Shown here in pieces: positions 41,519 to 57,368 of a stretch of DNA of 64,000 nucleotides. The notes beneath the pieces are model-generated. The model was not told where the DNA came from. It searched no databases and was given only the letters and a program-made list of their open reading frames with translations. Source of the DNA: an uncultured Colwellia sp. GTDB lineage: Bacteria > Pseudomonadota > Gammaproteobacteria > Enterobacterales > Alteromonadaceae. Each line of letters starts with the position of its first letter. Positions within the stretch are counted from its first letter, which is position 1. The stretch covers positions 62,001 to 126,000 of the forward strand of contig CAJXYE010000003.1 in the NCBI GenBank assembly GCA_913063325.1, given 5' to 3'. Position numbers and translations under genes: made by a program.

Positions 41519-42811
41519 ATGAAAGCATTGGTTGTTGAACCCTCAAAAATGTATCAATTACTGCTAGATGAATTTCTCAATGGCTTTTCTATTAGTCACC
41601 AAGTAGTCACCACTGGAGAGTCGACGTTAGCTGAATTAGCCAAAGAGTCGGTAGATCTAGTCATTATTGCTATGAATCTATCGGATACTTTAGCGACTAC
41701 GCTCGCTGGTAAAATTAAGTCACAGGAGAAATTCTCTCATATCACTATTGTCATCATGACAGGTGAACATGATCAAGAAAAGCTTACACAAATGAAAACT
41801 GCTGAAGTGAACTATGTTTGCCAGCGTCAGGAGTTAAATCAGCTAAAGCATGTTTTAACTCAATTAACTCGAAATGATCTATCAATTAGTACTGTTTCAG
41901 GACACATTTTGTATATTGAAGACCACCTGACCATTGCCAATATGACCATGGATATTTTGAAGCAAATGGGGCTAACCTTTGAGCACTGTAACTCTGCAGA
42001 GCAAGGTTTAGTGCTATTTGAAGAAAATAGCTACGATTTAGTCTTGTTAGATATTATCTTGATGGGTAAAAAAGATGGTATTGAAATGATAAAAGAGATC
42101 AGAGCACGACCAGACCATAAAAATTTAATCCCTCTATTAGCCATGTCTGGAACCTCTAAAACCAGTGAGCGTATTCATGCTTTAAAAGTGGGGGCTAATG
42201 ATTTTATTATAAAGCCCGTAGTGCAAGCTGAGCTCTCAGTGAGAGTTAAAAACCTTATTGTAGCCAGACAATTACATTTAAAAATAATCAGTCAACAACA
42301 AGATTTAGAGAAATTGGCGATGACAGACCAATTAACTGGACTCTATAATCGCTACTTTCTAAGCTCCTTCATCGAAAAAGCATTGAGTCTGGCAAAGCGT
42401 CATAAATATCCACTTAGTATAGTTATGATCGATCTTGATAAGTTCAAATTTATCAATGATAACTTTGGCCATGAATTAGGCGATGAAGTACTGGTAAAAA
42501 TTTCGTCAGTACTGCAAAAAAATTGTCGGTTAGAAGATATTGCTGTGCGTTTAGGCGGAGATGAGTTCTTAGTGGTTTTACCACACTGTGCACAAGAGCA
42601 AGCCATTAAAAAAGCCAATGACATTTGTAGTAAAGTTCATGCTATTGAAGCTAGCCAAGCGGATGTTGTGGTGGCGGCAAGCTTTGGTGTTAGTTCGACC
42701 GAACAAGGTAGTTTCAACTATAAGACCTTATTTGATTTGGCTGATCAGGCCGCTTATCAGGCCAAAAAACAAGGCGGAAATTGTGTGTGTTCTTTAGGAG
42801 GTGAAACTTAA
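41519..42811 (+). CDS. Response regulator diguanylate cyclase (REC-REC-GGDEF)
   Basis: The 430-residue protein has two receiver domains followed by a GGDEF domain. The first receiver (1-120) is degenerate: Ala51 sits where the phospho-accepting Asp is expected ([10 protein letters not shown]). The second (128-255) is intact, with Asp178 in [10 protein letters not shown] and the conserved Lys in FIIKPV. The cyclase domain (about 270-430) has [10 protein letters not shown], the active site GGDEF at 346-350, and an RLED inhibitory site 5 residues before it. It should make c-di-GMP when the second receiver is phosphorylated. No cognate kinase is adjacent. Confidence 0.92.
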
Positions 42812-42903: not shown

Positions 42904-45270
42904 ATGTTAACTATTGCCGAGCAAATCGCTCAAGAACTCAATGTTAACGCGGTACAAATTAATGCCGCTATTACCTTACTTGATGATGCCTCTACCGTGC
43001 CATTTATCGCTCGTTACCGTAAAGAAGCCACTCAAGGTTTAGATGATAATCATCTTCGACATTTAGCACAGCGATTAAGCTACTTACGTGAGTTAGCCGA
43101 TCGTCGACAAGTGATATTAACCAGTATTAAGCAGCAAGATAAACTGTCCCCCGCGCTGGAGAAATTAATTGAGCAAGCCGACAACAAAACACGTTTAGAA
43201 GATTTGTATTTACCTTACAAACCTAAACGTCGTACCAAGGGGAAAATTGCCAGTGAAGCAGGCATAGAGCCATTAGCAACAAGTCTTTTTAATAACTGGC
43301 AGTTATCACCTGAACAAGAAGCTAAAGCCTTCATTAATGAAGCTGCAGGTTTTGGTGATGTTAGCTCTGTATTGGAAGGTGCGAGTTATATTCTAGCGGA
43401 ACGCTTTAGTGAAGATGCTAATTTATTAGCAAAGCTTCGTCGTCATTTATTAAAACAAGCACATTTAACCAGCAAGCTAGTTAAAGGCCAAGAGAGGGCT
43501 GGAGCCAAGTTTCGTGATTATTTCGAACATAGTGAAAAATTAAGAACCGTTCCATCTCATCGTATGCTCGCCATGTTACGCGGCAAGAACGAAGGGTTTT
43601 TGCAAGTGAGTATCGATGTCGACCCTGGCCAAGAAAAAGGCACGGTTAGTAGCGCTGAACAAATCATAACTGAGCACCTAACATTAAGGCTAACTAAGCA
43701 AGCGGCAGCCGTTTTTTTAACTAAAGTTGTACAATTGACATGGAAAGCCAAACTAAGTGTCAGTTTATCAACTGAGCTGATCACTAGTTTACGTGAGCAA
43801 GCGGAAACACAAGCGATAGATGTTTTCTCTAATAATCTTGCTGATTTATTAATGGCTGCACCAGCAGGCCCTCAAGTAACGTTAGGATTAGATCCAGGCT
43901 TAAGAACAGGTTGTAAAATTGCCATTGTTGATGGCACAGGCAAGTTACTGCATACCGCCACTATTTTCCCGCACGCGCCACAAAATCATTGGGATAAATC
44001 TGTTAGGACGCTTGTTAATACCTGTCGTCAACATAAAGTGGAATTAGTCGCGATTGGTAATGGTACTGGCTCACGCGAAAGTGACAAGTTAGTTGCTGAA
44101 GTTATACAAACTTTTAAAGACGATGAAAGCAAATTACAGCTCACAAAAATGATTGTTAGTGAGGCAGGGGCATCTGTTTATTCTGCTTCAGAATTTGCCG
44201 CTAATGAATTTCCTGATTTAGATGTGTCAATTCGTGGTGCAGTGTCGATTGCCCGTAGATTACAAGATCCGTTAGCTGAATTAGTTAAAATTGATCCTAA
44301 AGCAATCGGTGTTGGTCAATATCAGCACGACGTTAGTCAGAGCCAACTCAGCAAAACCCTTGATGATGTTGTCGAAGATTGTGTAAATGCAGTGGGTGTT
44401 GATTTAAATAGCGCATCAGCAGCTTTATTAACTCGTGTTTCAGGGTTAAACAAAACAATGGCAAATAATATTGTTTCCTATCGCGATGAGCAGGGGCGTT
44501 TTACCAATAGAAAGCAACTGAAAAAAGTTGCACGTTTAGGGCCAAAGGCGTTTGAACAATCAGCTGGATTTCTACGTATCAGTGATGGTGATAATCCGTT
44601 AGACCAATCGGCACTGCACCCTGAGAGTTATCCCGTCGTTGAAGGAATTTTAAAACAATTGCAGCTTGATGTGAATAAAGTGCTTAATAACGATGAGCAG
44701 TTAAAGTCACTCGATATTAGTCAATTAACAAGTGGTGATATTGGTGAAGTCACCATCAAAGAAATTATTAAGGAGTTGGCTAAACCCAGTAGAGATCCGC
44801 GGCCTGAATTTAAAACCGCAAGCTTCGCTGAAGGTGTTAATACCATGGCGGATTTAACCATAGGTATGATACTTGAAGGGGTTGTTTCTAATGTCGCTAA
44901 TTTTGGCGCTTTTGTTGATATTGGTGTGCACCAAGACGGCTTAGTACACATTTCATCAATCACAGACAAGTTTGTTAGTGATCCACGTGAAGTTGTCAAA
45001 GCAGGGGACATTGTTAAGGTGAAGGTATTGGAAGTTGATGTTGCGCGTAAACGTATCAGCTTAACTATGCGTTTGGATGAGCAAGTTGTTACCGCTAGTC
45101 AAAGGCCTTCTTCAGCACAAAGTCGTGATAACAATGCTACAAATCATAGTAACAATAAGAATAACCATGGAAAACCAGCTCATTCGCAAAATAAGCCAAA
45201 AAGTAAAAAAGTAGACAATGCCGCGATGGGTAACGCTTTCGCTGATGCTTTTGCTAAGCTGAAGAAATAA
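42904..45270 (+). CDS. tex: Transcription accessory protein Tex
   Basis: The 788-residue protein matches Tex/YhgF. Residues 1-310 are helical ([39 protein letters not shown]). A YqgF-like RNase H domain follows ([19 protein letters not shown] near 327), then helix-hairpin-helix repeats ([40 protein letters not shown]). An S1 RNA-binding domain near 655-725 contains [28 protein letters not shown]. The tail is basic and Asn/Ser-rich. It binds nucleic acids and affects transcription elongation. It precedes the tandem Fur-box RNA genes and is transcribed in the same direction. Confidence 0.96.
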
Positions 45271-45306
45271 ATAACAAGTATTATAAAAATAATTGTCGAA
45301 ATAGTG

Positions 45307-45335
45307 TTGACTACCGTAATGAGAATGATTATCAT
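45307..45335 (+). promoter_or_regulatory. Fur-controlled sigma70 promoter of sRNA copy 1
   Basis: The -35 hexamer TTGACT (45307-45312) and the -10 hexamer TATCAT (45330-45335) are 17 bases apart. The Fur box TGAGAATGATTATCA (45320-45334) matches the 15-base Fur core TGATAATnATTATCA at all but one position and overlaps the -10, so iron-loaded Fur should block transcription. Confidence 0.88.
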
Positions 45336-45341
45336 TTGTTT

Positions 45342-45528
45342 CGTTGCTTAGGCAGTGAATGCTCTCTCACTAAATAAGCAGCAGCAAAGCACGGAACTTA
45401 GTGGTTATGTTCCAGGACGCATAACCGCTGAGTGCCAACTTTGAGACTTTACGGAGTCAATCGGCTTTAAAATTTTTGATGGTTTAACCAGTTACACTTT
45501 CTTGATGGCAAGTGTTACTGGTTTTTTT
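45342..45528 (+). ncRNA. Predicted Fur-regulated small RNA, copy 1 of a tandem pair
   Basis: About 187 nucleotides run from a start predicted 7 bases after the -10 to the end of the terminator T-run. A 5' hairpin (AGTGA...TCACT) exposes the loop ATGCTCTC. Next comes the octamer AAAGCACG, which also occurs in the RyhB core of enteric bacteria. A central hairpin pairs CTTAGTGGTTATG with CATAACCGCTGAG (two G-U pairs) around a loop containing TCCAGGA. The terminator pairs ACCAGT-T-ACACTT with AAGTGT-T-ACTGGT, followed by TTTTTTT. No convincing open frame is present. By analogy with PrrF and RyhB it probably spares iron by base pairing with mRNAs when iron is scarce. The class is inferred, not matched. 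Confidence 0.82.
45487..45528 (+). terminator. Rho-independent terminator of sRNA copy 1
   Basis: A 13-position stem (ACCAGTTACACTT / AAGTGTTACTGGT, one T-T mismatch) is followed by seven T residues. Confidence 0.92.
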
Positions 45529-45596
45529 ATGTCTATAAATCAAAGTTTATTTTATACGATTTTAAAAATTACCACTTAGTTAGTACAATTTCTATT

Positions 45597-45780
45597 AAAT
45601 TTTAAACGACCCTACTATCCCCAAGTATTTCTTATTACTTCCCCTTAAGCGCAGGCTAACTTCATTTAGTTGTTGTGTAGTTGCTAGTGACATCTGTCAT
45701 ATCTGCGAGATCATTAATGCGTGGATTAACTTCATTGGGTGCTTGCTTTGTTACTCGATAATACGTGTAATTTGTGTATT
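45597..45780 (-). pseudogene. Decayed duplicate of the chemoreceptor gene 3' end
   Basis: Read leftward, this segment matches the last 60 or so codons of the chemoreceptor gene at 46051-47685. Its end reads LNEVSLRL...VGSFKI, compared with [10 protein letters not shown]...VSRFKI in the intact gene. In-frame stops and small shifts make it non-coding. It was carried along when the neighbouring small-RNA gene was duplicated. Confidence 0.85.
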
Positions 45781-45803
45781 TAAAAATAATTGTCAAAATA
45801 GTA

Positions 45804-45832
45804 TTGACTATCTTAATGAGAATGATTATCAT
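45804..45832 (+). promoter_or_regulatory. Fur-controlled sigma70 promoter of sRNA copy 2
   Basis: TTGACT (45804-45809) and TATCAT (45827-45832) are separated by 17 bases, and the Fur box TGAGAATGATTATCA (45817-45831) is identical to that of copy 1. Confidence 0.88.
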
Positions 45833-45838
45833 TTGTTT

Positions 45839-46026
45839 CGTTGCTTAGGCAGTGAATGCTCTCTCACTAAATAAGTAACAGCGAAGCACGGAACTTAGTG
45901 GTTATGCTCCAGGACACATAACCACTAAGCACCACTTTGGGGTTCTACAGTTTTAAATTCGACTTTAAAATTTTTGATGGTTTAGCCAGTAATACTTACT
46001 TAATAGTCAGCGTTACTGGTTTTTTT
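45839..46026 (+). ncRNA. Predicted Fur-regulated small RNA, copy 2 of a tandem pair
   Basis: About 188 nucleotides, laid out like copy 1. The 5' segment to AAATAAG is identical to copy 1. The RyhB-like octamer is reduced to AAGCACG. The central hairpin CTTAGTGGTTATG / CATAACCACTAAG is now fully Watson-Crick: changes relative to copy 1 turn its two G-U pairs into A-U pairs, and the loop keeps TCCAGGA. The segment between the central hairpin and the terminator has diverged most. The terminator pairs CCAGTAA with TTACTGG, then TTTTTTT. Transcription ends about 25 bases from the stop codon of the convergent chemoreceptor gene. The different middle parts could give the two RNAs partly separate targets. 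Confidence 0.82.
45986..46026 (+). terminator. Rho-independent terminator of sRNA copy 2
   Basis: CCAGTAA pairs with TTACTGG, with a looser inner stem, followed by seven T residues. Confidence 0.9.
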
Positions 46027-46050
46027 ATGCTTATAAATTAGTGCTTATTT

Positions 46051-47685
46051 TTAAATTTTAAAACGACTCACTACTTCAGACATACCATTGCTACTGAGTT
46101 TTAAATGCTGGCTAGTCTCATTTAATTGTTGTGTGGTCGCCAAAGATTCATCAGTCATGCCTGCGAGATCATTTATACTTAAATTAACTTCATCGGCTGC
46201 TTGGCTTTGTTGCTCGGTAGCTCGCGCAATTTGAGTATTCATATCTGAAATAACTTCCATTAAGCGATCTATTTCAGATAAAGAATCATCAGCTTTGGCT
46301 GTCTGCTCTACCGTTTGCAGTGAAATATCTTGACTAACTTTCACCGCAGAAACTGCATCTTGTGCCCCAGCTTGCAATTTTTGAATCATTTTCTGAATCT
46401 CGTTAGTACTTTGCTCTGTTCGGTTAGCTAAAGTACGCACTTCATCAGCGACTACGGCGAAACCACGGCCTTGTTCTCCTGCGCGTGCAGCCTCAATTGC
46501 GGCATTCAGCGCTAATAAATTGGTTTGTTCTGCAATACCTCTAATGACATCGAGAACTGAGCCAATATTGTCACTCTCAGATGCTAAGCTAGCAACTACT
46601 TGACTAACATCATTAATATTACTCGATAACGATTGCATTTGGGTAATGGTATGAGAGATGATTTCTTTGCCATCGGAGGTATTACTTCTCGCATCATTTG
46701 CAGCTTGCTCTGCAGAGCTGGCGTTGTCACTCACTTCTCTAATTTGTGAGGTCATTTCTTCCATCGCGGTAGCGACTTGTGCGGTAATATCATTTTGGCT
46801 TTGGATAAGGGTTTTCACTGTATCACTAGCCCCAGATACGGCCTCTGCATGCTCTATAACTTGTGCGGTATTATCGGCAACATCTTGCAATGATTGACGC
46901 ATCTTTCCAGTAAAATCATTGAAATACTTAGATAAACGCGATATCTCATCTTGGCCACTAGCATCTAAAGCACTGGTAAGGTCACCTTCGCCTTGAGCAA
47001 TATCTTTCATTAATTCAGCGGCGGAGCGAGTCGGAACTAAAATACTCTTGCCAATAACGTAACTTACGCCCATGATAATAATGGCAATAATTAAGCTGTC
47101 AATAATCACTATATTACGTTGTTTAGCAAAATCTGCGTTAATATCATCCAAGTAGGTGCCTGTACCTAGGATCCACTGCCAAGGAGTAAAACCTTTTACA
47201 AAACCAATTTTATCAACGGGATCGTCAAAGCCAGGTTTTGCCCATTTGTAATCAACGAAGCCTTCGTTTTTCGCTTTGACAATATTAACCATCTCGATAA
47301 ATAAGGCTTTACCATCAGGGTCTTTAACACCTGCTACGTTTTTACCATTCAACTGAGGTTTAATCGGGTGCATGATCATATTGGGAGTGAAGTCGTTAAC
47401 CCAAAAATAATTATTGGTATCGTAACGTAAATTGGAAATAATGGCTAAGGATTGCAACTGTGCTTCTTTTTCAGTAAGTTCGCCGTTTTGTTGTAGGGCA
47501 TAATGGTGCTCAATAATGCCGTAACTAGTGTAGACTAACTCGTTAGTTGTGAATTTTTTTTGCTCCAATAAAGTATGATACTCTTCAGATAGACTCACGA
47601 AATCAAGTACAATTAGCCCAATAATGATTAATGACACCAGCATAGCTAACCTCTGCTGTATGGTATATTTACGTAAAAAACCCAT
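46051..47685 (-). CDS. Methyl-accepting chemotaxis protein with single Cache domain
   Basis: The 544-residue receptor has TM1 at about 12-32 and a periplasmic sCache_2 domain (about 35-185, with [19 protein letters not shown] and [18 protein letters not shown]). TM2 is at about 192-212, then HAMP. The signalling hairpin tip is [20 protein letters not shown] with downstream [20 protein letters not shown]. sCache_2 domains usually bind small organic acids; the ligand here is unknown. No methylesterase-binding pentapeptide was seen at the C-terminus (VVSRFKI). The 3' end is duplicated as a remnant at 45597-45780. Confidence 0.93.
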
Positions 47686-55182: not shown

Positions 55183-57285
55183 TTAGAAGGCAACTTGCAT
55201 TGCTAATCGGTAACTTCTTTCATCACCTACAGTAACATTCGAAGTGCCGCCACCAGCAAGGTAGTCGGTATCAAATAAGTTTTGCACGTTAAAACGTAAG
55301 TTAATGTCAGTATCGCTTACGGTTATCTTATAAGTAGCACCAAGGTCAATACGGGTATAAGCATCTTTTACTATAGTATTATCGTTATCAGCAAAGCGCT
55401 CACCTTCATAAAAAGCACCCGCATTAATTGCAAGGTTTTCAGTTAATTCATAGCGAGACCAAATAGACGCTGACCATTCGGGTGCATCAACAGGCGTTTT
55501 ACCTGTGAACTCTTCATCATTTTCATAAACAGCATCTAAGTTCATTACTGAGGACATGATAAATAACTTGTCGGTTACCGCACCTTGCGCAGCCATTTCA
55601 AAACCTTTATGACGTTGTTCACCTACCTGAGAAGTGCGATAGCTATCATCTTCATAATACTCAGTGACTAAAACACCTGACTTAGTAATGTCAAATATTG
55701 CTGAAGTTAACAGCAGGCGGTCATCGAGTAGTTGCCATTTTGCGCCAAGCTCATACTGCTTTGAGGTCATGGCATCTATTTCCATGCCGTAATTTAAATC
55801 TTCGTCATCGTTAATGGTTTCACTTCTTTGTGGTTCAAAACCTTCACTATAACTAGCATAGAAAGTAGTGCTCTCACTTGGATGGTAGAGAAGGCCACCT
55901 TTAGGTAATAATGACTCATTGTCAGCACCTTTTTTACTTTGTTTATCATAACGACCACCAAGCATAACTTGCCACTCTTGGTTAATGGTTATTAAGTCTT
56001 GAATATAAATACCGTAATAGTCATATTCGCTGGTATATAAGCTATCGTCTGTTGTATAGCTTATATCTGGGCGAGAAGGCTCAGCTTGGCCTGCTGAATA
56101 TTCAAATGAGTCACCCTTTACTTTTAATTGACCGTAGTAATAATCAAGGTAGTTAGCACCGACAAGTAAATTATGATCAACACCAACAAGTTCAAACTCA
56201 CCGGAAAAATCAATAAACGCCGTTTTAAATTGCCAATCATCAAAGCGATCATATGGCTTTGATGTATATGAGTCACCTTCCTCAAAGTCACTCGGTTTCT
56301 TTGGTGCTGACTCAAAGCGTTGACGTTCGAAAGTTTGCTCGTTATAGCCCACTTTTACTTGCCATGCGTCATTGATAATATAATTGGCATCAATACCATA
56401 ATTCTCTACAGTGATGTCAGTAAAGGCCCATGACATATCACGAATAGTTTTATCATCGCCAATAACATTACCTTCATCATCTAACCAAGCGCCTGTATCT
56501 AAGCCGGCTTTATCATTGGTTTTATCATAATGAACACTAACTAATAAGTCGTCATTGATATCATAATCTACCACTAAAGCACCAAGAAAACGTTCACGTT
56601 CTCTTTGTTCACCGTTTTGATATTCACGTTGGTAAGTTACATCTTGTTTTACTAAATTTGCTCTATAACGCAGCGAGTCGTCTTCAGTGATTGCGCCACC
56701 AACATCAAGTGTTAAACGCGATGAACCCTCTTGGTCAAAATCTATACCTAAATTAAAAATATTATTAGCGGTAGGTTTTTTAGTGACCATATTTACTAAG
56801 CCACCTGGGCCAGATTGACCGTACAAAATACTTGAAGGACCTTTGATTACTTCGATGCTATCTAAGGTTTCAATGGGCTGTTGATAATGAGACCAATGCT
56901 GATGTCCGTCACGTAAATAACCGTTAGAAGAGCTCAAAGTAAAACCACGTAGATTAAATACTTCTCGGTTACGCTGTTTTGAACCAGCGGTTAAGCTGGC
57001 GTCATTAACGAGCACCTCACCTAAAGTGGTGGCTAATTGTTCATTAATAACTGTATTTGGAATAACGGTGACCGATTGCGCAGTTTCTAATAATGAGACA
57101 TTGCCGCGCATAGCGCCATTAGCCTCATCAACTTTATAACCATGAAAATAGCTGCCTTTTACTTCAATGACTTCCATAGCCTGCTTGTTTAACGAACTAT
57201 CAGGTGAACTTTCTGCTGTGTTAGCAAAAACTGCCGGTGAGGAAAGTACCGCACTTACGGCTAAAAAGAGTGGAGAAAACTTCAT
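55183..57285 (-). CDS. TonB-dependent siderophore receptor
   Basis: The 700-residue outer-membrane receptor has a signal peptide ending SSPAVFA. A TonB box-like EVIEVKG lies near 38. The plug domain (about 50-170) contains SLLETAQSVTVIPN, LRGFTLSSSNGYLRDG and IEVIKGPSSILYGQSGPGGLVNMVTKKP. A 22-strand barrel ends in ...SYRLAMQVAF with the C-terminal Phe. The plug is typical of ferri-siderophore receptors of the FhuA/FpvA class, without the extra N-terminal signalling domain. A Fur box lies about 70 bases upstream of the ATG, so it is probably induced by iron starvation. The siderophore cannot be named from sequence alone. Confidence 0.93.
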   Translation of the reverse strand: MKFSPLFLAVSAVLSSPAVFANTAESSPDSSLNKQAMEVIEVKGSYFHGYKVDEANGAMRGNVSLLETAQSVTVIPNTVINEQLATTLGEVLVNDASLTAGSKQRNREVFNLRGFTLSSSNGYLRDGHQHWSHYQQPIETLDSIEVIKGPSSILYGQSGPGGLVNMVTKKPTANNIFNLGIDFDQEGSSRLTLDVGGAITEDDSLRYRANLVKQDVTYQREYQNGEQRERERFLGALVVDYDINDDLLVSVHYDKTNDKAGLDTGAWLDDEGNVIGDDKTIRDMSWAFTDITVENYGIDANYIINDAWQVKVGYNEQTFERQRFESAPKKPSDFEEGDSYTSKPYDRFDDWQFKTAFIDFSGEFELVGVDHNLLVGANYLDYYYGQLKVKGDSFEYSAGQAEPSRPDISYTTDDSLYTSEYDYYGIYIQDLITINQEWQVMLGGRYDKQSKKGADNESLLPKGGLLYHPSESTTFYASYSEGFEPQRSETINDDEDLNYGMEIDAMTSKQYELGAKWQLLDDRLLLTSAIFDITKSGVLVTEYYEDDSYRTSQVGEQRHKGFEMAAQGAVTDKLFIMSSVMNLDAVYENDEEFTGKTPVDAPEWSASIWSRYELTENLAINAGAFYEGERFADNDNTIVKDAYTRIDLGATYKITVSDTDINLRFNVQNLFDTDYLAGGGTSNVTVGDERSYRLAMQVAF

Positions 57286-57353
57286 AAATAACTCAAACCT
57301 TAATCAATATAAGAGTAAACAAATGTTCAAAAAAACTATGGTGCGAATTCTAA

Positions 57354-57368
57354 TGATAACCATTATCA
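57354..57368 (-). promoter_or_regulatory. Fur box upstream of the TonB siderophore receptor
   Basis: TGATAACCATTATCA matches the Fur core TGATAATnATTATCA at 14 of 15 positions. It lies 69 bases before the receptor's start codon, consistent with a promoter-overlapping operator. Confidence 0.88.

Follow-up and report, generated by a model that had tools for sequence, protein, structure and literature searches.

Two head-to-tail RNA genes occupy positions 45284–46050 of the window (the whole 64-kb stretch of DNA that was analyzed), flanked by tex and a chemoreceptor gene, and it is likely that each copy encodes a Fur-repressed small RNA that blocks iron-protein translation under iron shortage, an analogue of RyhB and PrrF without their core. 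The locus carries promoters with Fur-box-like sites, terminators, a conserved structure, an exposed loop (loop 1), and complementarity between that loop and ribosome-binding sites of iron genes. Because no Rfam membership and, among open-licence papers, no prior description was found, we refer to the pair as an undescribed RyhB/PrrF analogue.

Both flanking genes were named by eye; tex lies on the plus strand at 42904–45270 and the chemoreceptor gene (mcp) on the minus strand at 46051–47685. The tandem pair that the initial annotation had placed between them was confirmed by repeat comparison, which gave direct repeats offset by 497 bp, with 92% identity over 154 nt (45284–45437 versus 45781–45934) and 83% identity over 93 nt in the terminator part of the copies. 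The identical 5′ region reported there is exactly 62 nt long (45317–45378). Judged from the fold and the terminator, and with the 5′ end assumed to lie 7–8 nt past the −10 element, RNA copy 1 would be ~186 nt long (45343–45528, plus strand); RNA copy 2, also with a predicted 5′ end, would be ~187 nt (45840–46026, plus strand). Covariance model matches covered 45341–45436 of copy 1 and 45838–45933 of copy 2, the sequences of both copies being among the sources of the model. In the repeat comparison, the space between the RNA genes also proved to contain a broken second copy of the mcp 3′ end (approximately 45590–45790, minus strand), so that the duplicated unit consists of an RNA gene and this gene end. 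This degenerate stretch had been overlooked in the initial annotation.

A promoter scan returned a σ70-type promoter with TTGACT-17-TATCAT spacing at each copy (45307–45335 and 45804–45832, plus strand), as previously claimed, although this evidence is weak alone, since 6 promoter-like sites were observed compared with 3.4 (S.D. 1.7) in shuffles. Fur-box-like sites matching the consensus at 15 of 19 bases overlie the −10 elements of copy 1 (45315–45333, plus strand) and copy 2 (45812–45830, plus strand), in agreement with the Fur boxes noted earlier. This score was reached by only four plus-strand sites in the 64-kb window, and in order-1 Markov versions of the 1.3 kb around the copies the mean was 0.0 matches at 15 of 19. 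Expression and Fur control of the two genes are predicted from these elements, and an iron response of the pair is expected from the Fur box. The window's highest-scoring Fur-box match, 16 of 19, lies elsewhere, at 57349–57367, just upstream of a minus-strand gene (55183–57285) that reads like a TonB-dependent receptor. Intrinsic terminators were assigned from the fold and the T tract at 45487–45528 in copy 1 (T7 tract at 45522–45528) and 45984–46026 in copy 2 (T7 tract at 46020–46026), both on the plus strand; folding placed a hairpin before each T7 tract, which bears out the seven-T terminators described at the outset. A terminator scan that allowed loops of 3–8 nt reported none at either copy, probably because of this loop limit.

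Compared with shuffles, fold stability corresponded to z = −5.5 for copy 1 and −4.4 for copy 2. The predicted order is hairpin 1 (loop AUGCUCUC), hairpin 2 (CAGGAC loop), and terminator. Loop 1 is 8 nt long, lies at 45359–45366 in copy 1 and 45856–45863 in copy 2 (plus strand), and has an unpaired probability of 0.99–1.0; this exposure and its complements at iron genes make it the proposed seed. Loop 2, CAGGAC, was placed by alignment at 45413–45418 in copy 1 and, by alignment and unpaired probability, at 45910–45915 in copy 2 (plus strand), with an unpaired probability of 0.68–1.0. Hairpin 2, 13–15 pairs in length, corresponds to the central hairpin originally annotated in each copy and was seen both in the folds and in covariation; it has 13 inner pairs in copy 1 (45397–45432, plus strand) and 13-nt perfect arms, recognized as an inverted repeat and in the fold, in copy 2 (45894–45929, plus strand). 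For its alignment, 55 of the 59 sequences found were used, four chance GGAC places being dropped. Pairing was retained in 98.2% of cells, and 9 of the 13 pairs showed changes on both sides, a level of covariation reached by 0 of 500 shuffles (which ignore relatedness) and by no slid control. All 55 aligned sequences have the GGAC of loop 2, partly by construction, because every one had been selected for RGGAC in a hairpin. As judged from this alignment, hairpin 2 and its CAGGAC loop are under strong structural selection.

These data also bear on whether the locus is regulatory at all, the alternatives being that a Fur-controlled promoter gives rise to transcription noise or that the locus is a small-protein leader. 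Short reading frames are present, the one in copy 1 being 29 aa, but this frame has no counterpart among the listed plus-strand frames of copy 2. A coding reading was rejected on this ground and on the strong base-pair covariation in hairpin 2, and with the promoter–terminator arrangement also kept in most loci of the genus, we regard noise or a leader as extremely improbable.

A covariance search built from both copies showed relatives to be spread across the genus, with strong covariation. The first model was made from seven sequences, including both window copies, drawn from three genus genomes and G080. At E ≤ 0.1, and with antisense matches left out, it matched 39 of 395 family genomes, namely 29 of the 31 listed Colwellia/Litorilituus genus genomes (3 of these 29 being model sources) and 10 in other genera. 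Named genomes were also scanned with a stringent pattern in which both loops were kept constant; all 28 stretches recovered were titled Colwellia or Litorilituus. A wider model of 55 sequences matched 10 of 39 chosen genomes, several of them by construction, including 2 of 7 further genus genomes (two earlier misses among the seven), for a genus total of 31 of 36. It found nothing in genus members G465, G476, G508, G511, and G512. The tex gene of G465 reaches the contig end, so a gap in the assembly may account for the absence there; tex was not matched in G508, and the completeness of G512 is 76%. Behind tex in G511 (L368) stands a terminator like that of the RNA, without a Fur box or core, perhaps the relic of a lost copy.

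Genus loci (L053–L082 minus L074) lay within 1.5 kb of tex or mcp in 27 of 29 cases and near both in 20 of 29, and most retained the promoter–terminator arrangement. Two or more copies or modules were tallied in 17 of 29 genus genomes, with one possible double count: in G435, contig C6 ends in a copy whose core is identical to that of the copy on C43, so the two may be the same one. When the sequence behind tex was read, the tex end was not located at 8 of 29 loci so examined; a rescan of these eight whole loci gave no Fur-plus-RGGAC pair. At L004 (1557–1892) and L005 (1310–1585, minus strand), a single transcript carries the two-loop module more than once, and L004 has a third GGAC hairpin as well.

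Outside the genus, matches lay beside tex in G040, G048, G080, and G236 and away from it in G007, G340, G364 (g8), G025 (g26), and G032 (g33); the match in G397 is probably false, having no Fur box. Model matches L095 and L102 were taken as false for the same reason, as were L356 and L364, in which no Fur box was seen by eye, and wider-model matches in G004 and at one place in G510 also look false. A GGGACG- or AGGACG-type loop was kept in 8 of 9 other-genus members; G025 has lost the GGACG-type loop and kept loop 1 letter for letter. The wider model contributed new members with a Fur-like promoter in G041 and G046 and at another place in G510, whose member L365 retains hairpin 2 but not GGAC. 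Two further Fur-box RNAs with a CAGGACG loop stand behind tex in G003 (g4) and G013 (g14) (L378 from 2143, plus strand; L379 from 2172, minus-strand reading). Each has a Fur-box-like site of 14 of 19 bases and hairpin loops of ACAGGACGC or CCAGGACGC type; both were missed by the two models, so the counts understate the breadth of the family. Loop 1 reads CACUACUAC in g8, g41, and g46. Fur-box RNAs with this loop 1 and with AGGACG as loop 2 (GGGACG in L091) were noted at L090, L091, L092, L360, and L363, all in other genera, and may represent a seed swap.

Loop 1 complements the ribosome-binding sites of sodB (GGAGAGCAU), fumA (AGAGAGCA), and iscR (GAGAGCA). In the RNA's own genome the sodB leader ends in TAGGAGAGCATAATG, which allows 9 pairs with loop 1, one of them G-U. 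Within 6 nt of ATG, GAGAGCA gave 55 matches compared with 23 for the reversed pattern, and the control GAGAGAA gave 49 compared with 42. One gene-start filter, by which starts were dropped if the frame was open for >40 codons upstream or encoded <50 aa, left 18 test (GAGAGCA) and 23 control (GAGAGAA) starts; 1 of the 55 GAGAGCA matches was not recovered at this step. With gene roles taken from Pfam and reading, the sorting unblinded, and the control chosen after the test set was known, iron, Fe-S, or heme roles were assigned at 10 of 18 test starts and 1 of 23 control starts (p = 0.0003). When the count was restricted to likely metal-binding proteins, leaving out CcmD, NapE, and the paralogue described below, it was 7 of 18 versus 1 of 23 (p = 0.013), and additionally counting two control TonB receptors as iron-related gave 7 of 18 versus 3 of 23 (p = 0.075). 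Enrichment of iron proteins among complementary gene starts, a mark of Fur-repressed iron-sparing small RNAs, was thus found at p values of 0.0003 to 0.075 according to the sorting rule. Duplex energies favor the test set by construction and were set aside.

The iron side of the test set comprised an Rrf2 protein (read as IscR), CcmD, an Fe/Mn superoxide dismutase, a fumarase that we take to be of the Fe-S class (class I), a 4Fe-4S DmsB-like protein, NapE, cytochrome c, a radical SAM protein (below the Pfam cut-off), an FA_desaturase-family protein read as AlkB-like, and its contig-cut paralogue (no Pfam match, assigned by likeness). The other eight were AstA, DctM, DAHP synthase, a DHH protein, acyl-CoA dehydrogenase, CoA transferase, and two proteins that fell into no family. 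Among the 18 we retained L145, which is 60 aa long, has no Pfam family, and is probably spurious. The control set of 23 held NadA, two TonB receptor plugs, and 20 others.

Leaders were then compared across the genus. GAGAGCA was found in 25 of 27 fumA leaders (30 loci), despite two lineages with different flanks, and at least 7 bp of pairing was available in 26 of 29 sodB leaders, 19 of them exact. For iscR the exact count alone was used (10 of 28), because some matches of 7 bp or more lie off the ribosome-binding site; pairing was absent from more distant members. Leader starts were not found at 3 fumA, 2 iscR, and 1 sodB loci, and 2 of 32 genomes were without a locus in each of the three locus searches. 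RNA-bearing G319, G247, and G486 read GAGAACA at iscR, and G495 carries the RNA, yet has GGAGAACA at sodB and GAGAGCC at fumA. No RNA was found by the models in G476, G508, and G511, yet all three keep GGAGAGCA at sodB, and G476 and G511 keep GAGAGCA at fumA; in G465, another genome in which the RNA was missed, neither sodB nor fumA carries the motif. Since the motif occurs without the RNA (G476, G508, and G511) and the RNA without the motif (G495), ordinary ribosome-binding sequence may account for part of the signal; GAGAG belongs to the ordinary site, which makes a complement of 7–9 nt short.

Loop 2 was rejected as a second seed. A genome-wide search for near-full complements returned only loop 2 itself and one one-mismatch site (window 41894–41906), and there was no excess at loop-1 gene starts, where the mean was −7.0 kcal/mol compared with −7.6 in controls and GTCCT lay near 2 of 18 test and 1 of 23 control starts. 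A CsrA-type protein is one candidate partner of the CAGGAC loop, and the lack of complements would suit an RNA whose loop 2 GGA titrates CsrA/RsmA under iron starvation, the loop 1 match being incidental. CAGGAC(G/A/C) of loop 2 resembles the CsrB repeat CAGGA(U/A/C)G given in the available text of PMC7652899, none of the 55 aligned sequences (selected for the motif) departs from GGAC, and GGA hairpins multiply inside one RNA, with three in L004 and two in L005. However, the many GGA hairpins of a CsrB/RsmZ-type sponge were not found: each window RNA has a single one, and the maximum was three in L004, whereas three Pseudoalteromonas Csr RNAs have 25, 21, and 9 GGA motifs according to the accessible part of PMC11882849. 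CsrA SELEX ligands, as far as described in the excerpted PMC7652899, mostly have a stem of at most four pairs and a 6-nt loop, unlike hairpin 2 with its long stem and loop of 8–10 nt. The same excerpt states that iron-limited growth of Escherichia coli needs CsrA repression of bfr and ftnB, so that titration of CsrA would work in the wrong direction. The excess of iron genes would also be left unexplained, and the G510 member L365 keeps hairpin 2 but not GGAC. Titration of CsrA as the main role of the RNA is therefore doubtful.

We prefer the reading as a Fur-repressed, iron-sparing RNA. When iron is short, Fur repression would be lifted and each copy transcribed; loop 1, held open by hairpin 1, would pair with ribosome-binding sites of iron, Fe-S, and heme mRNAs. 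Predicted targets are sodB, class I fumarase, and iscR, and probably ccmD, cytochrome c, napE, and others. Pairing would block translation and so spare iron, and use of Hfq and repression of these targets are predicted likewise. Hairpin 2 with its CAGGAC loop may have a second job in protein binding or stabilization. Tentatively, the RNA may even be two-headed, loop 1 silencing iron-protein mRNAs and CAGGAC recruiting or titrating an RNA-binding protein (CsrA or another), with the loop 1 seed swappable between genera and loop 2 near-fixed. Such an RNA, if real, would tie iron starvation to a second global regulator. Across genera, the scaffold varies in its proposed pairing loop and scarcely at all in the other.

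Neither copy matched any Rfam family at gathering score. At E up to 10, six weak matches were obtained, two of which were the PrrF promoter and Fur box; these PrrF (RF00444) matches scored 16.3 and 15.7 bits against a gathering score of 90 and covered that part only, and PrrF kinship was rejected on this basis. RyhB gave no match. Among the RyhB places read in the order's other families, 8 of 9 keep the RyhB core ATTGCTCACATTGCT, the ninth (L087) having one extra base; the core is absent from both window copies. An octamer offered in the initial annotation as a link to RyhB, AAAGCACG, is indeed present in copy 1, but copy 2 reads GAAGCACG and the site varies across relatives; as it is not kept between the two copies, it is no evidence of kinship and was rejected as a RyhB relic. 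The suggestion of a family separate from RyhB and PrrF gains support from the Rfam result, the missing ATTGCTCACATTGCT, and the genus-wide recurrence with covariation. The RyhB model matched 42 of 119 order genomes and none in family f1, own genome included. Tandem RyhB-like genes under the Rfam cut-off were noted at L083, L084, and L085 in families f2 and f16.

A true RyhB orthologue that has diverged beyond recognition by sequence or place would share the type of control site and the overlapping predicted targets, and the available portion of PMC2964681 describes a Shewanella ryhB that neither BLAST nor the Rfam model picked up and that occurs in tandem in S. amazonensis. Against such descent stand the lack of the RyhB core in either copy, the different seed and hairpin setting, and the neighborhood: no tex lies within 1.5 kb of 20 RyhB loci (L033–L052), leaving synteny via tex unsupported, and the four loci read by eye differ, with hemB, a GNAT gene, and polA at L039 and polA at L045. 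Hidden orthology is therefore very unlikely. Open-licence literature on Colwellia, Alteromonas, and Alteromonadales with RyhB, Fur, or small RNA held, in its accessible text, no description of the Colwellia RNA. In the same papers no iron-sparing RNA turned up for this marine genus, in whose family the RyhB model gave no match.

Judged by its sequence features, the Colwellia RNA probably works like RyhB and PrrF and is a member of neither family. Both iscR and fumA are RyhB targets. Like RyhB (RF00057), it has a Fur-box match at the promoter and complementarity to the ribosome-binding site of sodB, a RyhB target according to the accessible part of PMC9294342, here through a different seed. RyhB is also tandem in some genomes (places in f2 and f16), as is the Colwellia pair. 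In contrast to RyhB, the Colwellia RNA has no ATTGCTCACATTGCT and no Rfam match, carries its seed in a hairpin loop, lies in another neighborhood, and has a second conserved loop. In PrrF1/PrrF2, each copy has its own promoter and Fur box. The likeness to that pair proposed initially holds for this feature and for the head-to-tail layout, which is mentioned for PrrF1/PrrF2 in the available portion of PMC2964681, but not for the RNA body, which differs in sequence beyond the promoter and Fur box. CsrB/CsrC and McaS-type dual RNAs are alike in having a GGA hairpin loop, with CAGGAC close to the CsrB repeat (PMC7652899, as excerpted), whereas the Colwellia RNA usually has one GGA hairpin, a long stem, and a Fur-box promoter, CsrA being a candidate binder. 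FsrA of Bacillus (PMC9294342) and IsrR of Staphylococcus (PMC9410917), as described in the accessible text of these papers, have unrelated sequences and the same iron-sparing logic; they come from distant bacteria and were compared by that logic, the Rfam scan being the sequence comparison. RyhB-like RNAs share little sequence and control similar transcripts, according to the part of PMC9294342 available. The Colwellia pair would add to the designs known for iron-sparing RNAs in Gammaproteobacteria, with targets nameable to the base, and the job of RyhB in E. coli is apparently done in Colwellia by a different sequence and shape.
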